Assembly (NCBI RefSeq): GCF_039655775.1 | Contig: NZ_JBBYXJ010000002.1 | Coordinates: 868,001 to 932,000, forward strand | Length of the DNA stretch: 64,000 nucleotides | Source of the DNA: Iodidimonas sp. SYSU 1G8 | GTDB taxonomy: Bacteria; Pseudomonadota; Alphaproteobacteria; SMXS01 | Reading direction: 5' to 3' | Shown: piece by piece, positions 2,948 to 54,547 of the stretch | Layout: every line of letters starts with the position of its first letter | How positions within the stretch are numbered: the first letter of the stretch is position 1 | Position numbers and translations under genes: made by a program | The notes under the pieces: model-generated | Seen by the model: the letters and a program-made list of their open reading frames with translations, nothing else | Databases searched by the model: none | What the model was told of the DNA's origin: nothing

Positions 2948-3318
2948 CAGCGGTGTCCCCGGCCGAGAAACACGGCGATCCCGAGCAACGCCCAGCCCAG
3001 CATCAGCAGCGTCCCGCCAACCGGCGCCAGAAAGCCGAATCCATGGGGGCCGCCAAAGGCGCTGGCGTAAAGCGAGCCGCAAAACAGCATGCTCCCGAGC
3101 AGGAACGCCATCCCCGCGCCCTGGGCGACGATCGTACGGGCATGGCCGATGCTGAGCCCGGTGAGCACGAGAGCGATGGCGTGGAAGAAATGATACTGGC
3201 TCGCCGTCTCGAACAACTGGCGCGCGTGATCGTCCATGGGCACGGCATGCGAGCCCGCGGCGCCGAGCGCCACGGCGGTGAGCGCGAGGACGGCGCCGGT
3301 CGGTGTCCATAATCTCAT
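2947..3318 (-). CDS. DUF423 family integral membrane protein (YgdD-like)
   Basis: A membrane protein of 123 residues with four hydrophobic segments, matching DUF423/YgdD in length and pattern. Conserved features include the N-terminal LGAAGSHA, the QYHFFHAIAL motif at about 41-50 and the FGSLYASAFG-like LFCGSLYASAF stretch. The family sits in the inner membrane; no biochemical role is established. The start overlaps the stop of the upstream monooxygenase gene by four bases (ATGA), and its own stop overlaps the next small gene, so three genes form one translationally coupled minus-strand operon. Confidence 0.88.
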   Translation of the reverse strand: MRLWTPTGAVLALTAVALGAAGSHAVPMDDHARQLFETASQYHFFHAIALVLTGLSIGHARTIVAQGAGMAFLLGSMLFCGSLYASAFGGPHGFGFLAPVGGTLLMLGWALLGIAVFLGRGHR

Positions 3319-4331
3319 GACGGCCTCGGCAGGTTGAAAATCTCGGACAGCAATTCGTAGGACCGCAGCCGCGCCTCGAAGTCGTAGCAGATGCTCAGGA
3401 TCACGAGTTCATTCACGTCGTAGCTGTCCGCGAACGCCTCGAGCTGCTGCTTGACCTGTTCCGGCGCGCCAATGATCGAATGGCTCTTGCGGCGGCCGAT
3501 CATGGCCCGGTCCAGGTCGGTGTAGGGATAGGCCAGCGCGTCCTCCGGCGAGGGATAGGCCGCGAGTTCGCCCTTCTCGAAGCGCAGGCGCCACAGGTCG
3601 CGGCTCGAGGCGATGCGCAGTGCTTCCTCTTCGGTATCCGCGCAGAGCACGAACACGCCGACGCTGACCTTGGGGACCCCGTAGAACCGTGACGGACGAA
3701 AATACCGCCGGTACTGATCGACGATCTCGCGGCCGCCATCGGGGGTGATGAAATGGGCGAACGAAAAGGCCAGGCCGAACTGGGCGGCGAGCGCCGCGCT
3801 CTGATCGCTCGACCCGAGCATCCAGACCTGCGGCACCGTCTTGGGGCGCGGCGTGGCCCGGACCGAGGACAGCGCCTGGGTCGCGGGCGGCGTGTCGGTC
3901 AGGAACGCCAGCGTGTCGGCGACGCGGGTGCCGAAATATTCCACGCCCACCTGCGAGCCATAGGCCAGCGCCGCCGATGTCATCTGGTCTCCGCCGGGGG
4001 CGCGGCCGATGCCCAGATCGATCCGGCCGGGCGTCATGGTCTCGATGACGCGAAAGTTTTCCGCCACCTTGAGCGGGCTGTAATGGCTGAGCATGACGCC
4101 GCCCGAGCCGACTCTCATGGTCGAGGTCTCGGCGGCGATGCGGGTGATCAGAATCTCGGGTGACGACCCGGCAAAGCCGTTCGTGCTGTGGTGTTCGGCC
4201 AGCCAGAAGCGGGTGTAGCCCCATCGTTCGGCTGCCTTCGCCAGGTCGATGGTCTCGCGGATGGCGTCGGCGGCGGTGCCGCCTTCACGGATCGGCGACT
4301 GATCGACCACGCTGAGCTTGAGCTGCGACAT
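3315..4331 (-). CDS. LLM-class flavin-dependent oxidoreductase (bacterial luciferase-like, MsnO8 type)
   Basis: A 338-residue TIM-barrel luciferase-like monooxygenase expected to use reduced FMN supplied by a separate reductase. Family hallmarks are the N-terminal LSVVDQSPI, WLAEHHS at about 45-51, the flavin-binding GRIDLGIGRAPGGDQ, and a C-terminal SYELLSEIFNLPRPS. Substrate is unknown. I chose ATG 4331 (MSQLKLSVVD); a TTG at 4340 would add three residues. It is first in a coupled operon with DUF423 and a 66-residue protein. A 27-bp interrupted palindrome (4350-4376) just upstream of the start is a likely operator or leader hairpin. Confidence 0.9.
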   Translation of the reverse strand: MSQLKLSVVDQSPIREGGTAADAIRETIDLAKAAERWGYTRFWLAEHHSTNGFAGSSPEILITRIAAETSTMRVGSGGVMLSHYSPLKVAENFRVIETMTPGRIDLGIGRAPGGDQMTSAALAYGSQVGVEYFGTRVADTLAFLTDTPPATQALSSVRATPRPKTVPQVWMLGSSDQSAALAAQFGLAFSFAHFITPDGGREIVDQYRRYFRPSRFYGVPKVSVGVFVLCADTEEEALRIASSRDLWRLRFEKGELAAYPSPEDALAYPYTDLDRAMIGRRKSHSIIGAPEQVKQQLEAFADSYDVNELVILSICYDFEARLRSYELLSEIFNLPRPS

Positions 4332-4349
4332 GATCCCCAAGGTCTGGTT

Positions 4350-4376
4350 GAAGCTGTCCTAGCACTAGGTAGCTTC
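4350..4376. promoter_or_regulatory. Interrupted palindrome upstream of the luciferase-like gene
   Basis: GAAGCT (4350-4355) pairs with AGCTTC (4371-4376), and inside it CCTAG (4358-4362) pairs with CTAGG (4365-4369) around CA. It ends 19 bases before the ATG at 4331, so it is either a repressor operator or a leader hairpin. No known motif is assigned. Confidence 0.5.
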
Positions 4377-4461
4377 CACACCGAACGCAAGGGGAAGGCG
4401 CAGGCGGCGGCGAGATGCGAGAGGAGCGCGCCGACCGTGGGCGCCTGCGCACGGCCAAAAC

Positions 4462-4495
4462 AAAAACCGCCCGGCTCCATGGAAGCCGGGCGGTT
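4462..4495 (-). terminator. Rho-independent terminator of the 36-aa microprotein gene
   Basis: A 12-bp stem (4465-4476 pairing with 4484-4495, AACCGCCCGGCT type) with a seven-base loop, read on the minus strand, ends in GGTTTTTG. It lies 35 bases past the stop of the small minus-strand reading frame. Confidence 0.85.
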
Positions 4496-4530
4496 CTCGC
4501 AACGTCCCTTGGGGAGAGGGAAGCGGTTTA

Positions 4531-4641
4531 TCAGGCAAGGAAGGGGCTGGTGAACGTGGCGAACATGACGACGGCGAACACCACATAGGTCGCGACAGTC
4601 AGGACGGTCTCGGCTCTCAAGCCATTTTCGGTCGGGTACAT
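4531..4641 (-). CDS. Single-span membrane microprotein, 36 aa
   Basis: This is a reading frame of 37 codons from ATG 4641-4639 to TGA at 4531. The protein starts MYPTENGLRAETVLTVA, continues as an uninterrupted hydrophobic stretch (about 13-29, VLTVATYVVFAVVMFAT) and ends FTSPFLA, so it is predicted to cross the inner membrane once. An AGGA ribosome-binding site lies upstream. A plausible sigma-70 promoter (TTTCAA, 17 bp, TATATT on the minus strand) sits about 50 bases upstream, and a strong terminator lies downstream. This complete transcription unit argues for a real gene. I do not recognise a family; small single-span subunits of respiratory or transport complexes look like this. Confidence 0.65.
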   Translation of the reverse strand: MYPTENGLRAETVLTVATYVVFAVVMFATFTSPFLA

Positions 4642-4691
4642 CGTTCTGTTTCCTCATCGGCGGGCGGGATGCCCTCGGTGCCGTTGAGAGG

Positions 4692-4720
4692 AATATATTG
4701 CAGGTGCGTTGGTGTTGAAA
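4692..4720 (-). promoter_or_regulatory. Candidate sigma-70 promoter of the microprotein gene
   Basis: On the minus strand TTTCAA (4720-4715) and TATATT (4697-4692) are separated by 17 bases. Initiation near 4685 would give a leader of about 45 bases before the ATG at 4641. Confidence 0.5.
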
Positions 4721-4729
4721 TCATCCGAA

Positions 4730-4750
4730 AATGCATAATAGTCGTGCATT
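4730..4750. promoter_or_regulatory. Dyad AATGCA-N9-TGCATT, candidate operator
   Basis: A perfect 6-bp inverted repeat with a nine-base spacer lies just upstream of the -35 of the candidate microprotein promoter and within reach of the divergent LysR gene. LysR-type proteins often bind interrupted dyads in such positions. The regulator is not identified. Confidence 0.4.
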
Positions 4751-4984
4751 ATCGATCTCGATATGCGTCAACGCGTTGAGGCCCAATGCGGCTCAGGCTG
4801 GGTATAAATCCCAATTTGCTGTGCAAAAATAACGCGTAGAGCGCAATTTTCCCGGCATCGTGGAAATGCAAAAACGCCGTGTTTCTGCGGCTTTACGTTG
4901 CGATGCGGCATGCTTTCGGTGTGCGATATATTGCGAATGCGAGAGTGCTTCTATGATCGACACTTGCAGGGTAGCCGTGCATTA

Positions 4985-5980
4985 ATGCGGTCTATGATCG
5001 ACTGGGATGACATCCGCTACTTTCTCGCCGTCGCCCGTCGGGGCTCCATCACCTCCGCGGCGCGCGATCTGGGGGTGAATCATTCGACGGTTTCACGGCG
5101 TATCGCCGCCTTCGAGGACAATCTCGGAGTCCGCCTGTTCGACCGGGTCGCGACCGGCTACACGCTGACCGTGGCCGGGCAGGAAATGGTGCCGTCGGCG
5201 CAGCGCATGGAAGAAGAGGCGCTGGGGCTGGATCGGCGGCTTTACGGCCGGGATACCGAACTGAGCGGCCAGTTGCGCGTGACCACGGCAGGGGTTTTCG
5301 TCAACCCGTTCTTCATGGAGCAGGTGGGGCGCTTCCTGGCGGAATATCCCGGGATCGACATCCAGCTGACCGTGTCCACCGATCTGGCCAACCTGCATGC
5401 GCGCGAGGTCGATGTCGCGATTCGCGCCACCGACAATCCGCCTGACACGCTGGTCGGCCGCCGCATCGGCCGCCTGACCGCCATGCTCTACGGACGCAGC
5501 ACGTTCATCGCGCCGGGTGAGCCGGGCGCCGCGCCGGCGGCCGCCGCGCCGGACGTGGTCGCGTTCGAGGAAGGGCCGCGGGACTTCGTCGAGGCAAGCT
5601 GGTTCCGCGACACCTATCCGAACGCGCGCACGCGCGTCAGGCTCAATAGCGTCGACGCGGCCTATCAGGCCATCAAGTCGGGTGTCGGCATCGGCATGCT
5701 GCCCTGTCACATGGGCGACACCAATCCCGATCTGCGCCGTCTGCCGCCCTATCACCAGTCGCCGGTCTTCGATGTCTGGCTGCTGACCCATGCCGATCTG
5801 CGCCGCACCGCCAAGGTCCGCGCCTTCATCAACTTCATGGCCAATGCGATCATGCCGCACAAGGACCTGATCGAAGGACGCCGTCCGCCGCAGTTCTCCT
5901 CCGGCGACCGGCTGGCCATCGACAATGGCTACGCCGCGGCGACCAGCGCCAGCAATCTGGTGGACGATCTGCCGATCTAG
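4985..5980 (+). CDS. LysR-family transcriptional regulator
   Basis: DNA-binding regulator of 331 residues from ATG 4985; ATG 4994 (MIDWDDIRYFLAVARRGS) is an equally good start. The N-terminal winged helix-turn-helix (about 5-65) has the usual SITSAARDLGVNHSTVSRRIAAFE recognition pattern, and the remainder is a periplasmic-binding-like effector domain (about 90-290). Many LysR proteins control the divergent gene; here that would be the 36-residue membrane protein, with dyads in the shared intergenic region. The C-terminal 30 residues are an unusual family-external tail. The gene converges tail-to-tail with the thioesterase, their stop codons overlapping in CTAG. Confidence 0.9.
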   Translation: MRSMIDWDDIRYFLAVARRGSITSAARDLGVNHSTVSRRIAAFEDNLGVRLFDRVATGYTLTVAGQEMVPSAQRMEEEALGLDRRLYGRDTELSGQLRVTTAGVFVNPFFMEQVGRFLAEYPGIDIQLTVSTDLANLHAREVDVAIRATDNPPDTLVGRRIGRLTAMLYGRSTFIAPGEPGAAPAAAAPDVVAFEEGPRDFVEASWFRDTYPNARTRVRLNSVDAAYQAIKSGVGIGMLPCHMGDTNPDLRRLPPYHQSPVFDVWLLTHADLRRTAKVRAFINFMANAIMPHKDLIEGRRPPQFSSGDRLAIDNGYAAATSASNLVDDLPI

Positions 5981-6402
5981 GCCTTGCGCCTGCCGAGCTT
6001 GGATGTGGACGACGCCGTGACCAGCAGGTCGCCGGCTTCGTTGAAGATGCGGCCCTCCAGAAAGATGATGGACCGCCCCTGGCGCACGATCTGGCCCTCG
6101 CCGATCACCGGCCCGATGGGGGCGGGGCCGATGAAGGTCGTCTTCATCTCCAGCGTCTGCACGATCTGGTCGTCCTCCAACCGCTGGACCAGCGCGCGCG
6201 ACATGACGTTGTCGAGCATGGCGGCGAGAATGCCGCCCTGGATCAGTCCGCTGCCGTTCTCGAAGGCCTGGGTGCCGGTATAGCGGATGCGCATCCAGCC
6301 TTCCTGCGCGTTGCCTTCGAGAAATTCGGCGCCCAGCGTGTCGTTGATGCCGGCGCGGCGGCGGCTGGCCGGATAGCCTTCGTCAGGCGGGGTGTCGCTC
6401 AT
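5977..6402 (-). CDS. PaaI-like hotdog-fold acyl-CoA thioesterase
   Basis: A 141-residue single hotdog domain, the usual size for PaaI/4HBT thioesterases. The active-site helix motif is present as FENGSGLIQGGILAAMLDNVMSRA (about 47-70), with IQGG in place of the common HGG, so the catalytic histidine is missing. The later strand TTFIGPAPIGPVIGEG matches the family. It would hydrolyse acyl- or aryl-CoA thioesters in the cytoplasm, but the substitution leaves specificity open. A strong GGGAGG ribosome site precedes ATG 6402. It is transcribed away from the Rieske oxygenase, with tandem dyads in the shared region, so the two may be co-regulated. Confidence 0.85.
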   Translation of the reverse strand: MSDTPPDEGYPASRRRAGINDTLGAEFLEGNAQEGWMRIRYTGTQAFENGSGLIQGGILAAMLDNVMSRALVQRLEDDQIVQTLEMKTTFIGPAPIGPVIGEGQIVRQGRSIIFLEGRIFNEAGDLLVTASSTSKLGRRKA

Positions 6403-6475
6403 GGTGTTTCCTCCCGTTAGGTATCCGCTTCTAGAGAGGGTGCATCCCCCGCGTCAACGCGCCGTCGGAAACGGA

Positions 6476-6515
6476 CCTATCAGAAATGATAGGCTGGACT
6501 ATTAGAATCGATAGT
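6476..6515. promoter_or_regulatory. Tandem near-identical dyad operators between thioesterase and Rieske oxygenase
   Basis: Two 16-base sites, CTATCAGAAATGATAG (6477-6492) and CTATTAGAATCGATAG (6499-6514), match at 13 positions and are 22 bp apart, about two helical turns. Each lies within an 18-bp dyad (CCTATC-N6-GATAGG and ACTAT-N8-ATAGT). The placement, 75 to 115 bases before the oxygenase start, suggests binding of a dimeric regulator, probably two dimers on one DNA face. The regulator is unknown. Confidence 0.65.
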
Positions 6516-53283: not shown

Positions 53284-54161
53284 CCGCTTTCGATCTGTTC
53301 GTCGGCATCGACTGGTCCGGCGAACGCGGCACCAGACTGCGGCGCCTGCAGGTCGCGGTTTGCGCGCCCGGCGATGGCGCGCCGGTACTGGTGGCCAATC
53401 CGCGCGGCGGGCCCTGGTCCCGCCCCGATGTCATCCACTGGCTGCTGGCGCGGTCCTCGGCCGCCCGGGTGCTGTGCGGCCTGGATTTCTCCTTCAGCTT
53501 CCCGTGGCAGGATCACCGGGCCTATTTCCCCGGTTTCGCCGACGACCCGGCCGACTACGCCGCCTTCTGGGATCTGGTCGAGGCCATGTGTTTCGACGAC
53601 GAATGCCTGTTCGGCGGCGCTCTGGCCGATGTCGAACCGTTCGCCGATCATTTTCGCCGGGGCATCATGACCGGAGAGGCCTATCGCCGCCGGCTGCGGG
53701 AAACGGAAAGACAGGCGCAGGCCGGCGGACGCGGGACGCCCGAATCCGTGTTCAACATGGTCGGGGCGCGTCAGGTGGGGAAAGCCGCCCTGTCGGGCAT
53801 GCGGGCGCTGCGCTGGCTGAACTCCCATGACGGCGTCGCCATCTGGCCGTTCGAGCCGGCTGACGACGCGCGGCTGGTGGCGGTCGAGGCATTCCCGACC
53901 GCCTTCGTGCGCCTGGCCGGGGAAGGACCCGGCAAGGTGCGCGACCTTTCCCGGCTTGACCGGGTGCTCGCGCATTATGGGTCTCGGGGCGTCGGGGAAG
54001 CGTGGGGCGGCGAGGGCGCGGGCCTCACCGACGACATGACGGATGCGCTGGTCGCGGCCGCCGCGTTGCGGGCCCTGGCGGCCGATCCCGCGATGTGGAA
54101 TCCGCCGGGCTTATCGGATAGTGTGCGCCGCAGCGAAGGCTGGACGTTCGGGATCCTGTGA
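53280..54161 (+). CDS. DUF429-like predicted RNase H-fold nuclease
   Basis: 293 residues with the spaced acidic pattern of DUF429/RNase H-like proteins: VGIDWSGERG (D11), CGLDFSFSFPW, AVEAFPTAF and TDDMTDALVAAAALRAL. No signal or membrane segment. It may be a Holliday-junction-resolvase-related nuclease, but activity is unproven. Overlaps rarA by four bases; its TGA shares one base with the crcB ATG. Association with rarA hints at DNA repair, an inference. Confidence 0.75.
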   Translation: MTAFDLFVGIDWSGERGTRLRRLQVAVCAPGDGAPVLVANPRGGPWSRPDVIHWLLARSSAARVLCGLDFSFSFPWQDHRAYFPGFADDPADYAAFWDLVEAMCFDDECLFGGALADVEPFADHFRRGIMTGEAYRRRLRETERQAQAGGRGTPESVFNMVGARQVGKAALSGMRALRWLNSHDGVAIWPFEPADDARLVAVEAFPTAFVRLAGEGPGKVRDLSRLDRVLAHYGSRGVGEAWGGEGAGLTDDMTDALVAAAALRALAADPAMWNPPGLSDSVRRSEGWTFGIL

Positions 54162-54547
54162 TGAGCAGCTATTATACCTATATGGCGGTGGCGGCCGGCG
54201 GCGCGGCGGGCAGCCTCGCGCGGTTCATGCTGGCCGGCCAGGTCATGCGCTGGACCGGACCCGGTTTCCCCTGGGGCACGCTGACGGTCAATGTGCTGGG
54301 CGGCCTGATCATGGGCATTCTGATCGAACTGTTCGCCGTGAAATTCTCTCCGTCGCCGGCGCTCCAGGCGGGGCTGACCGTCGGCCTGCTCGGCGGCTTC
54401 ACCACCTTTTCATCCTTCTCGCTGGAGACCGTGCTGATGATTCAGCGGAACGAGGTGTTTCCCGCGCTCGCCTATGTCGCCGGCTCGGTCGTCCTGTGCG
54501 TCGCCGCCGTGTTCTTCGGCATGTTCCTTGTGAGGTCCATCCTGTGA
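54161..54547 (+). CDS. crcB: Fluoride channel CrcB/Fluc
   Basis: 128-residue membrane protein with four segments, the dual-topology fluoride exporter. Motifs GGAAGSLARFML, PWGTLTVNVLGG and GGFTTFSSFSLE contain the expected asparagine and phenylalanine/threonine pore residues. ATG 54161 overlaps the upstream stop (TGATG). No fluoride riboswitch is visible; the gene is embedded in an operon. A following rluC overlaps it by four bases (GTGA). Confidence 0.94.
   Translation: MSSYYTYMAVAAGGAAGSLARFMLAGQVMRWTGPGFPWGTLTVNVLGGLIMGILIELFAVKFSPSPALQAGLTVGLLGGFTTFSSFSLETVLMIQRNEVFPALAYVAGSVVLCVAAVFFGMFLVRSIL

Follow-up and report, generated by a model that had tools for sequence, protein, structure and literature searches.

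A 36-codon frame on the minus strand of the window (the whole 64-kb stretch of DNA analysed here), at 4641–4531, is very probably a real gene for a membrane microprotein, because relatives keep its size, shape, and place behind the same promoter layout. The LysR-type regulator encoded divergently beside it is highly likely to control it, as judged from gene order and putative operator sites, and a real gene and LysR control, taken jointly, can also be proposed with good confidence. The microprotein is probably the main target of this regulator. The genome comparisons support the view that the microprotein is a lineage-specific protein family, found in one taxonomic family only among what was searched.

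Overall organization of the locus and the microprotein frame

The microprotein unit occupies part of an intergenic region of 653 nt between the genes for LysR and a luciferase-like monooxygenase (Table 1). Translation of the 36 codons gives MYPTENGLRAETVLTVATYVVFAVVMFATFTSPFLA, followed by a stop codon. The N-terminal end is short, polar, and partly acidic, a long tail is absent, and the last half of the protein has no charged residue. The best 18 residues have a mean Kyte-Doolittle (KD) value of 2.29, and AlphaFold2 predicted a single helix covering residues 5–35 with a mean pLDDT of 82, which agrees with the earlier note in its description of a 36-residue frame with one membrane span. With fewer than about 50 residues and one predicted hydrophobic helix, the product falls among the small single-span membrane proteins. 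KdpF, AcrZ, MgrB, and CydX are small single-span bacterial membrane regulators, and the microprotein shares with them a size of 30–50 amino acids, one span, and expression signals of its own. Unlike them, it matches no family in Pfam or NCBIfam and is not located beside a known partner operon.

When the intergenic region (4341–4993) was shuffled with its dinucleotides preserved, 2 of 2000 shuffles yielded, on one strand, an ATG frame of 30–60 amino acids with a KD of at least 2.0 and a Shine-Dalgarno sequence. Two frames of this kind occur in the real window, both strands together: the microprotein and a hydrophobic frame at 54437. The latter was rejected as a second microprotein, as its ATG lies inside, and in phase with, a 129-codon frame (54158–54547, plus strand) for a membrane protein, which by eye we take to be CrcB/FluC-like. 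This internal ATG mimics a free-standing 36-residue membrane microprotein.

Table 1. Features of the locus. Positions are those of the window unless a locus is named.
Feature	Position	Strand	Remarks
Luciferase-like monooxygenase gene (MsnO8 family)	3315..4340	minus	Syntenic neighbour, outside the microprotein unit
Predicted intrinsic terminator hairpin	4460..4500	minus	Arms, folding energy, shuffles
CDS of the 36-residue single-span membrane microprotein	4531..4641, stop included	minus	Translation, hydropathy, structure model, same-place frames, profile score
Shine-Dalgarno-like GAGGA	4651..4655	minus	Sequence
−10-like TATATT	4692..4697	minus	34 nt from operator; −10-like hexamers at that distance in relatives, weakest in L009
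Weak −35-like TTTCAA	4715..4720	minus	17-nt gap to −10; missed by consensus scan
Proposed LysR operator TGCA-N9-TGCA, microprotein promoter	4732..4748		Dyad, conserved place
−10-like TATATC, possible distal promoter or relic	4925..4930	minus	34 nt from LysR-proximal operator
Second operator TGCA-N9-TGCA, proposed autoregulatory	4965..4981		29 to 13 nt before LysR ATG
LysR-type regulator (HTH_1 + LysR_substrate)	4994..5980	plus	Divergent; start is the ATG conserved in relatives
Companion 44-residue frame in relatives	L005:702-836, L006:706-840, L007:705-839, L008:705-839, L009:717-851	opposite to LysR	LysR-oriented coordinates

Same-place frames in relatives

The regulator gene contains the domains PF00126 (75.2 bits) and PF03466 (101 bits), both above their cut-offs, and its divergence from the microprotein, as first described, was confirmed. 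LysR orthologs with 68–87% identity are present in eight of the nine other family genomes, all named family records being metagenome-assembled genomes; the best LysR match in the ninth, G009, is only 31% identical. Three records bear titles (Candidatus Kuenenia stuttgartiensis or Rhizobium sp. Q54; L024, L025, L028) that misfit the relatives of the sequence, and their contigs carry the locus of the family. Beyond the family, the next LysR of the scan shares 42% identity along most of its length, and two rhizobial records reach 49% and 55% over the best segment only; the scan outside the family relied on a pair of short peptide patterns and may overlook relatives. The distant LysR genes that were checked lie opposite genes for a GST, SDRs, a DUF1330 protein, and cytochrome c'.

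At all eight family loci with a LysR ortholog, six from the same genus (L004–L009) and two from other genera (L010 and L011), the opposite strand carries an ATG frame of 33–36 residues with one span and a Shine-Dalgarno sequence. The frame has 35 residues in L004–L008, 34 in L009, and 33 in both L010 and L011. The start codons of LysR and the microprotein lie 353 nt apart in the window and 348–356 nt apart in the six loci of the same genus; the distances in the two other genera are 114 and 147 nt. The Shine-Dalgarno sequence and the ATG are kept at all nine loci (the window and the eight relatives), and a hairpin follows the stop codon within 95 nt at each of them. Because upstream in-frame ATGs in L004, L006, and L007 would lengthen the frame to 72–80 codons, the start in these three loci was picked by its Shine-Dalgarno sequence.

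No ATG frame of 25–60 residues with a KD above 1.7 was found at the corresponding place in two sets of control loci. The first comprises 69 LysR loci of named genomes, which are more distant and lack independence because many are close rhizobial relatives of each other; the second comprises 11 other LysR loci within the family genomes. Among the control loci, L030 and L082 offered less than 700 nt of upstream DNA and L017 was slightly short.

Sequence divergence and selection

A tblastn search with the 36 residues had been proposed as a check, and it gave no match at E ≤ 1 in any of the nine other family genomes. Taken alone, this search would have misled, because the sequence drifts fast and it is place, size, and shape that stay. 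The window microprotein is 20–27% identical to seven of its relatives and 11% identical to that of L011. Its own genome contains a single match to it. Besides this match, a search with the 36 residues against 60 genomes gave a single one, in G013 (E 0.196), which was rejected because a 265-codon frame runs across it on the opposite strand.

A profile built from the six same-genus members, with the window excluded, scored the window frame at 9.2 bits, a value reached by 4 of the 2998 scored shuffles of its residues (3000 were made). The same profile gave 6.2 bits for L011 and 0.8 bits for L010, close to the shuffle mean of 0.7, so that the kinship of the L010 frame is drawn from its position alone. 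Against 289 genomes of the class, the microprotein profile matched 30 at E ≤ 0.1, four of them from this family; the matches in the other 26 were rejected, with a best E of 0.0016 or weaker and with 25 of the 27 matches listed lying inside frames of more than 100 residues, as judged from the table. A search of PHROGs gave a best E of 0.32 for the window protein and 0.0098 for the L011 protein, and nothing lower. The PDB search with the profile returned chance matches to EF-Tu alone (E 0.31 or weaker), which were discarded.

The earlier note had named a frame not conserved in relatives, with stop codons or no synonymous bias, as grounds for refutation. A synonymous bias is present in five sister species (L004–L008), which were used because the divergence of the window's own frame is too great for this test. 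In the sister species, pN/pS is 0.16 in the frame and 0.34–5.18 in the five other frames, an estimate drawn from pairs that overlap and from 25 variable columns, with one antisense frame also low (0.34). The variable columns are distributed 4/3/18 over codon positions 1/2/3, placing 18 of the 25 at the third position. The microprotein frame in these five species is under purifying selection.

These data bear on two alternatives in which the frame itself has no role. One is a regulatory RNA in which the frame is incidental. A short, strongly terminated transcript is indeed predicted, and the DNA just upstream is 76–80% identical among the six same-genus relatives; set against this are the low pN/pS with its third-position bias, the Shine-Dalgarno sequence and ATG kept at every locus, and the absence of an Rfam match here, and we consider this reading very unlikely. 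A dual-function RNA is a further possibility. The other is a chance frame within a regulatory region. It would account for the lack of tblastn matches in the nine other family genomes, and other hydrophobic small frames that are not conserved do occur nearby in some relatives (e.g., L006 and L007). However, the rarity of such frames in the shuffles, their presence at 9/9 loci versus 0/80 controls, the selection in the sister species, and the profile score make a chance origin extremely improbable. The original reading of this frame as a gene is supported by the same-place frames at all eight loci, by selection in the sister species, by the spacing between the −10-like hexamer and a shared operator, by the hairpins after the stop codon, and by the empty control loci.

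Expression signals

The earlier note had credited the frame with a ribosome site, a promoter with 17-bp spacing, an upstream operator-like dyad, and a strong terminator. In the direction of transcription, the dyad TGCACGACTATTATGCA (4748–4732) is followed after 34 nt by TATATT, a predicted leader of approximately 44 nt, GAGGA, the frame, and the terminator hairpin. The ribosome site (4655–4651) and the dyad (TGCA-N9-TGCA) were found as described. In the promoter, the −10-like hexamer and the 17-nt gap are present; the −35-like hexamer agrees with the consensus at just three of six positions, and a sigma-70 consensus scan of 3000–6500 listed no minus-strand promoter. A poor −35 hexamer together with the lack of a sigma-70 match would fit an activator-dependent promoter.

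The terminator has perfect 12-nt arms (4465–4476 and 4484–4495) and a T-rich stretch on the minus strand (4464–4455), the minus-strand letters after the arms being TTTGTTTTGG. Its predicted fold of −34.1 kcal/mol (z −6.5) was equalled by none of 200 shuffles, which bears out the claim of a strong terminator. A simple terminator scan of the window did not list this hairpin (4460–4500).

Neighbouring genes and a companion frame

A strong terminator behind a short frame, with the monooxygenase gene on the same strand 190 nt further on, could also describe a leader peptide with an attenuator for that gene. In the six same-genus loci and in L011, the side of the microprotein away from LysR carries the monooxygenase gene, which is further off in the genome of L010. 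This reading fails because the next gene is on the opposite strand in L010 and L011 (by eye in L011). In addition, a second small frame intervenes in L005–L009, the amino-acid sequence is under selection and forms a predicted membrane helix, and no run of regulatory codons was apparent by eye. We regard a leader peptide as highly improbable. The opposite-strand gene between monooxygenase and microprotein in L010 (L027) and L011 appears by eye to be glyoxalase-like, and it was not seen at the corresponding place in the window.

The intervening frame encodes 44 residues with one span, has its own Shine-Dalgarno sequence, and follows the microprotein in five of the six same-genus relatives, giving two membrane microproteins at these loci and one in the present genome. 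It carries the motif H.P.T near the N-terminus. Its pN/pS is 0.48 (L005–L008), and its variable columns (18/9/23) show a weaker third-position bias. A GTGC/GCAC dyad was noticed by eye upstream of it. A profile of the companion found no convincing copy in the window's own genome, where the best match (E 0.088) lies inside a 348-residue frame, and none in G002 at E ≤ 1.

Putative operators and proposed control by LysR

At a divergent promoter, regulators of the LysR type typically occupy a recognition site near −65 and activation sites near −35 and −10 (PMC11602165), and autorepression is common among them (PMC8407307). The centre of the predicted dyad is near −55 from the predicted transcription start, compared with −65. 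The dyad lies upstream of the −35 hexamer of the target and is conserved in place, as expected for a LysR gene with a divergent target. The divergent layout, the dyad before a poor −35, and a second site at the start of the regulator are all common to such systems; the locus differs from them in that the target is a membrane microprotein of 33–36 residues and in that the operator is doubled in the genus. A LysR gene divergent from a small membrane protein was not found in the open-access literature.

The window contains two TGCA-N9-TGCA dyads, both in this intergenic region, a number that is weak evidence alone because 23 of 100 shuffles also hold two or more. At 34 nt from the operator, six of the nine loci have TATATT, and the others have TACATT (L004), TACCTT (L010), and CATATA (L009). 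Among the outgroups, the hexamers at this distance are TATCTT (L032), TAATAT (L034), and ATAGTT (L031), and no matching dyad is present in L033 and L084. L010 and L011 have a single operator common to both genes. The same-genus loci have a doubled operator, with a spacing of 233 bp in the window and 234 bp in G002 and G004 (the strict pattern matched twice in G000, G002, and G004). In the window (4692–4981), an operator with a −10-like hexamer occurs twice, 233 bp apart, both copies facing the microprotein. By eye, the DNA between the doubled operators is poorly conserved despite the kept spacing. The doubled operator and −10 hexamer could be explained by promoter duplication or by looping between the two copies.

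In the ten family genomes, the operator pattern matched 15 times, 11 of them at this locus, where the matches are no independent proof because the patterns were written from these sites; the reversed control gave none. Of the four matches elsewhere, three share an orthologous position ahead of the gene for a small secreted protein, and the fourth is in G008. When the −10 hexamer was included, the window's own 3.9-Mb genome contained three sites: the promoter of the microprotein, the site next to LysR, and one before the gene for this secreted protein, which is DUF1344-like, again with none in the reversed control. Across the family, the strict combined pattern gave seven matches in four of the ten genomes and one control match (G002). 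One of these seven, in G008 (L157), is at an unrelated place without an evident target frame. Control of the microprotein by the divergent LysR, raised as a possibility by the earlier note, gains support from synteny at 8/8 loci, from the constant spacing between the operator and the −10-like hexamer, and from the 0/80 control loci.

A probable second target

The DUF1344-like gene is probably a second target of the same LysR, as its upstream sequence suggests. Its secreted product is encoded at L150:1501-1764 (G000:C2:1353599-1353862, plus strand). The DUF1344 score of the protein in the window's own genome is 19.3 bits, under the cut-off of 23.1, and the G005 ortholog has no DUF1344 match at E ≤ 0.01. 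The protein of a sister species shows a weak likeness to CusF, and in L111 the gene adjoins one of the CorA family. Five close orthologs (G000, G001, G002, G003, and G005; 76–100% identical to the query) were compared, the distant homologs L151–L153 (42–44% identical) being left out, and in all five the dyad is present, intact or with one letter changed in a half-site, at 33 nt from a hexamer TATAAA, TATAAC, or TATAAG.

Proposed mechanism and function

The microprotein frame would form a single-gene transcription unit for an inner-membrane protein. Ligand-bound LysR would act from 4732–4748, approximately 55 bp before the predicted start of transcription, and may recruit RNA polymerase to a promoter whose −10 is good and whose −35 is poor. 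From 4965–4981, just before its own start codon, it may lower its own expression. The short mRNA would terminate at 4500–4460, and its putative translation product would insert into the membrane as one helix. AcrZ, KdpF, and MgrB pack against a membrane partner and tune or stabilise it. By analogy, the helix may likewise pack against a membrane partner, tuning or stabilising it, and would not be an enzyme. We tentatively rate modulation of a membrane partner as the likeliest action, above that of a membrane-active peptide, and at somewhat less than even confidence.

A membrane-active product would be a toxin-like stress peptide (TimP- or type-I-like), through which the LysR signal would lower the membrane potential or damage the inner membrane. 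The size, the single hydrophobic span, the uncharged last half, and the fast drift with conserved length and hydrophobicity agree with such a peptide. TimP of enterobacteria is a small toxin of the inner membrane that had been overlooked (PMC7667032), a short membrane protein as here; it is held down by an sRNA, whereas the present gene is paired with LysR and has no recognised sRNA. Rfam at gathering scores detected four tRNAs and nothing else in the 64-kb window, so no known antitoxin RNA was recognised there, a search in which undescribed antitoxin RNAs would be missed. The frame also has a single match in its own genome, and the LysR pairing and the purifying selection in the sister species fit a regulated function better. 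A toxin-like peptide is rather unlikely on this evidence, and we prefer the reading in which the helix modulates a membrane partner.

A more far-reaching scheme, which we consider quite doubtful, would combine these elements into one regulon. The family's LysR would chiefly govern the fast-drifting membrane microproteins, together with the DUF1344/CusF-like secreted protein beside a CorA-type transporter, as an envelope or cation-stress response; the helix would directly tune the transporter, and the doubled operator may loop.

The locus illustrates a gene family that was missed by protein similarity search and yet found by synteny and operator spacing. It offers a compact and testable pair of one regulator and one 36-residue output. 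If the main job of this LysR is the membrane microprotein, microproteins would be tied to a class of bacterial regulators that is among the most common.
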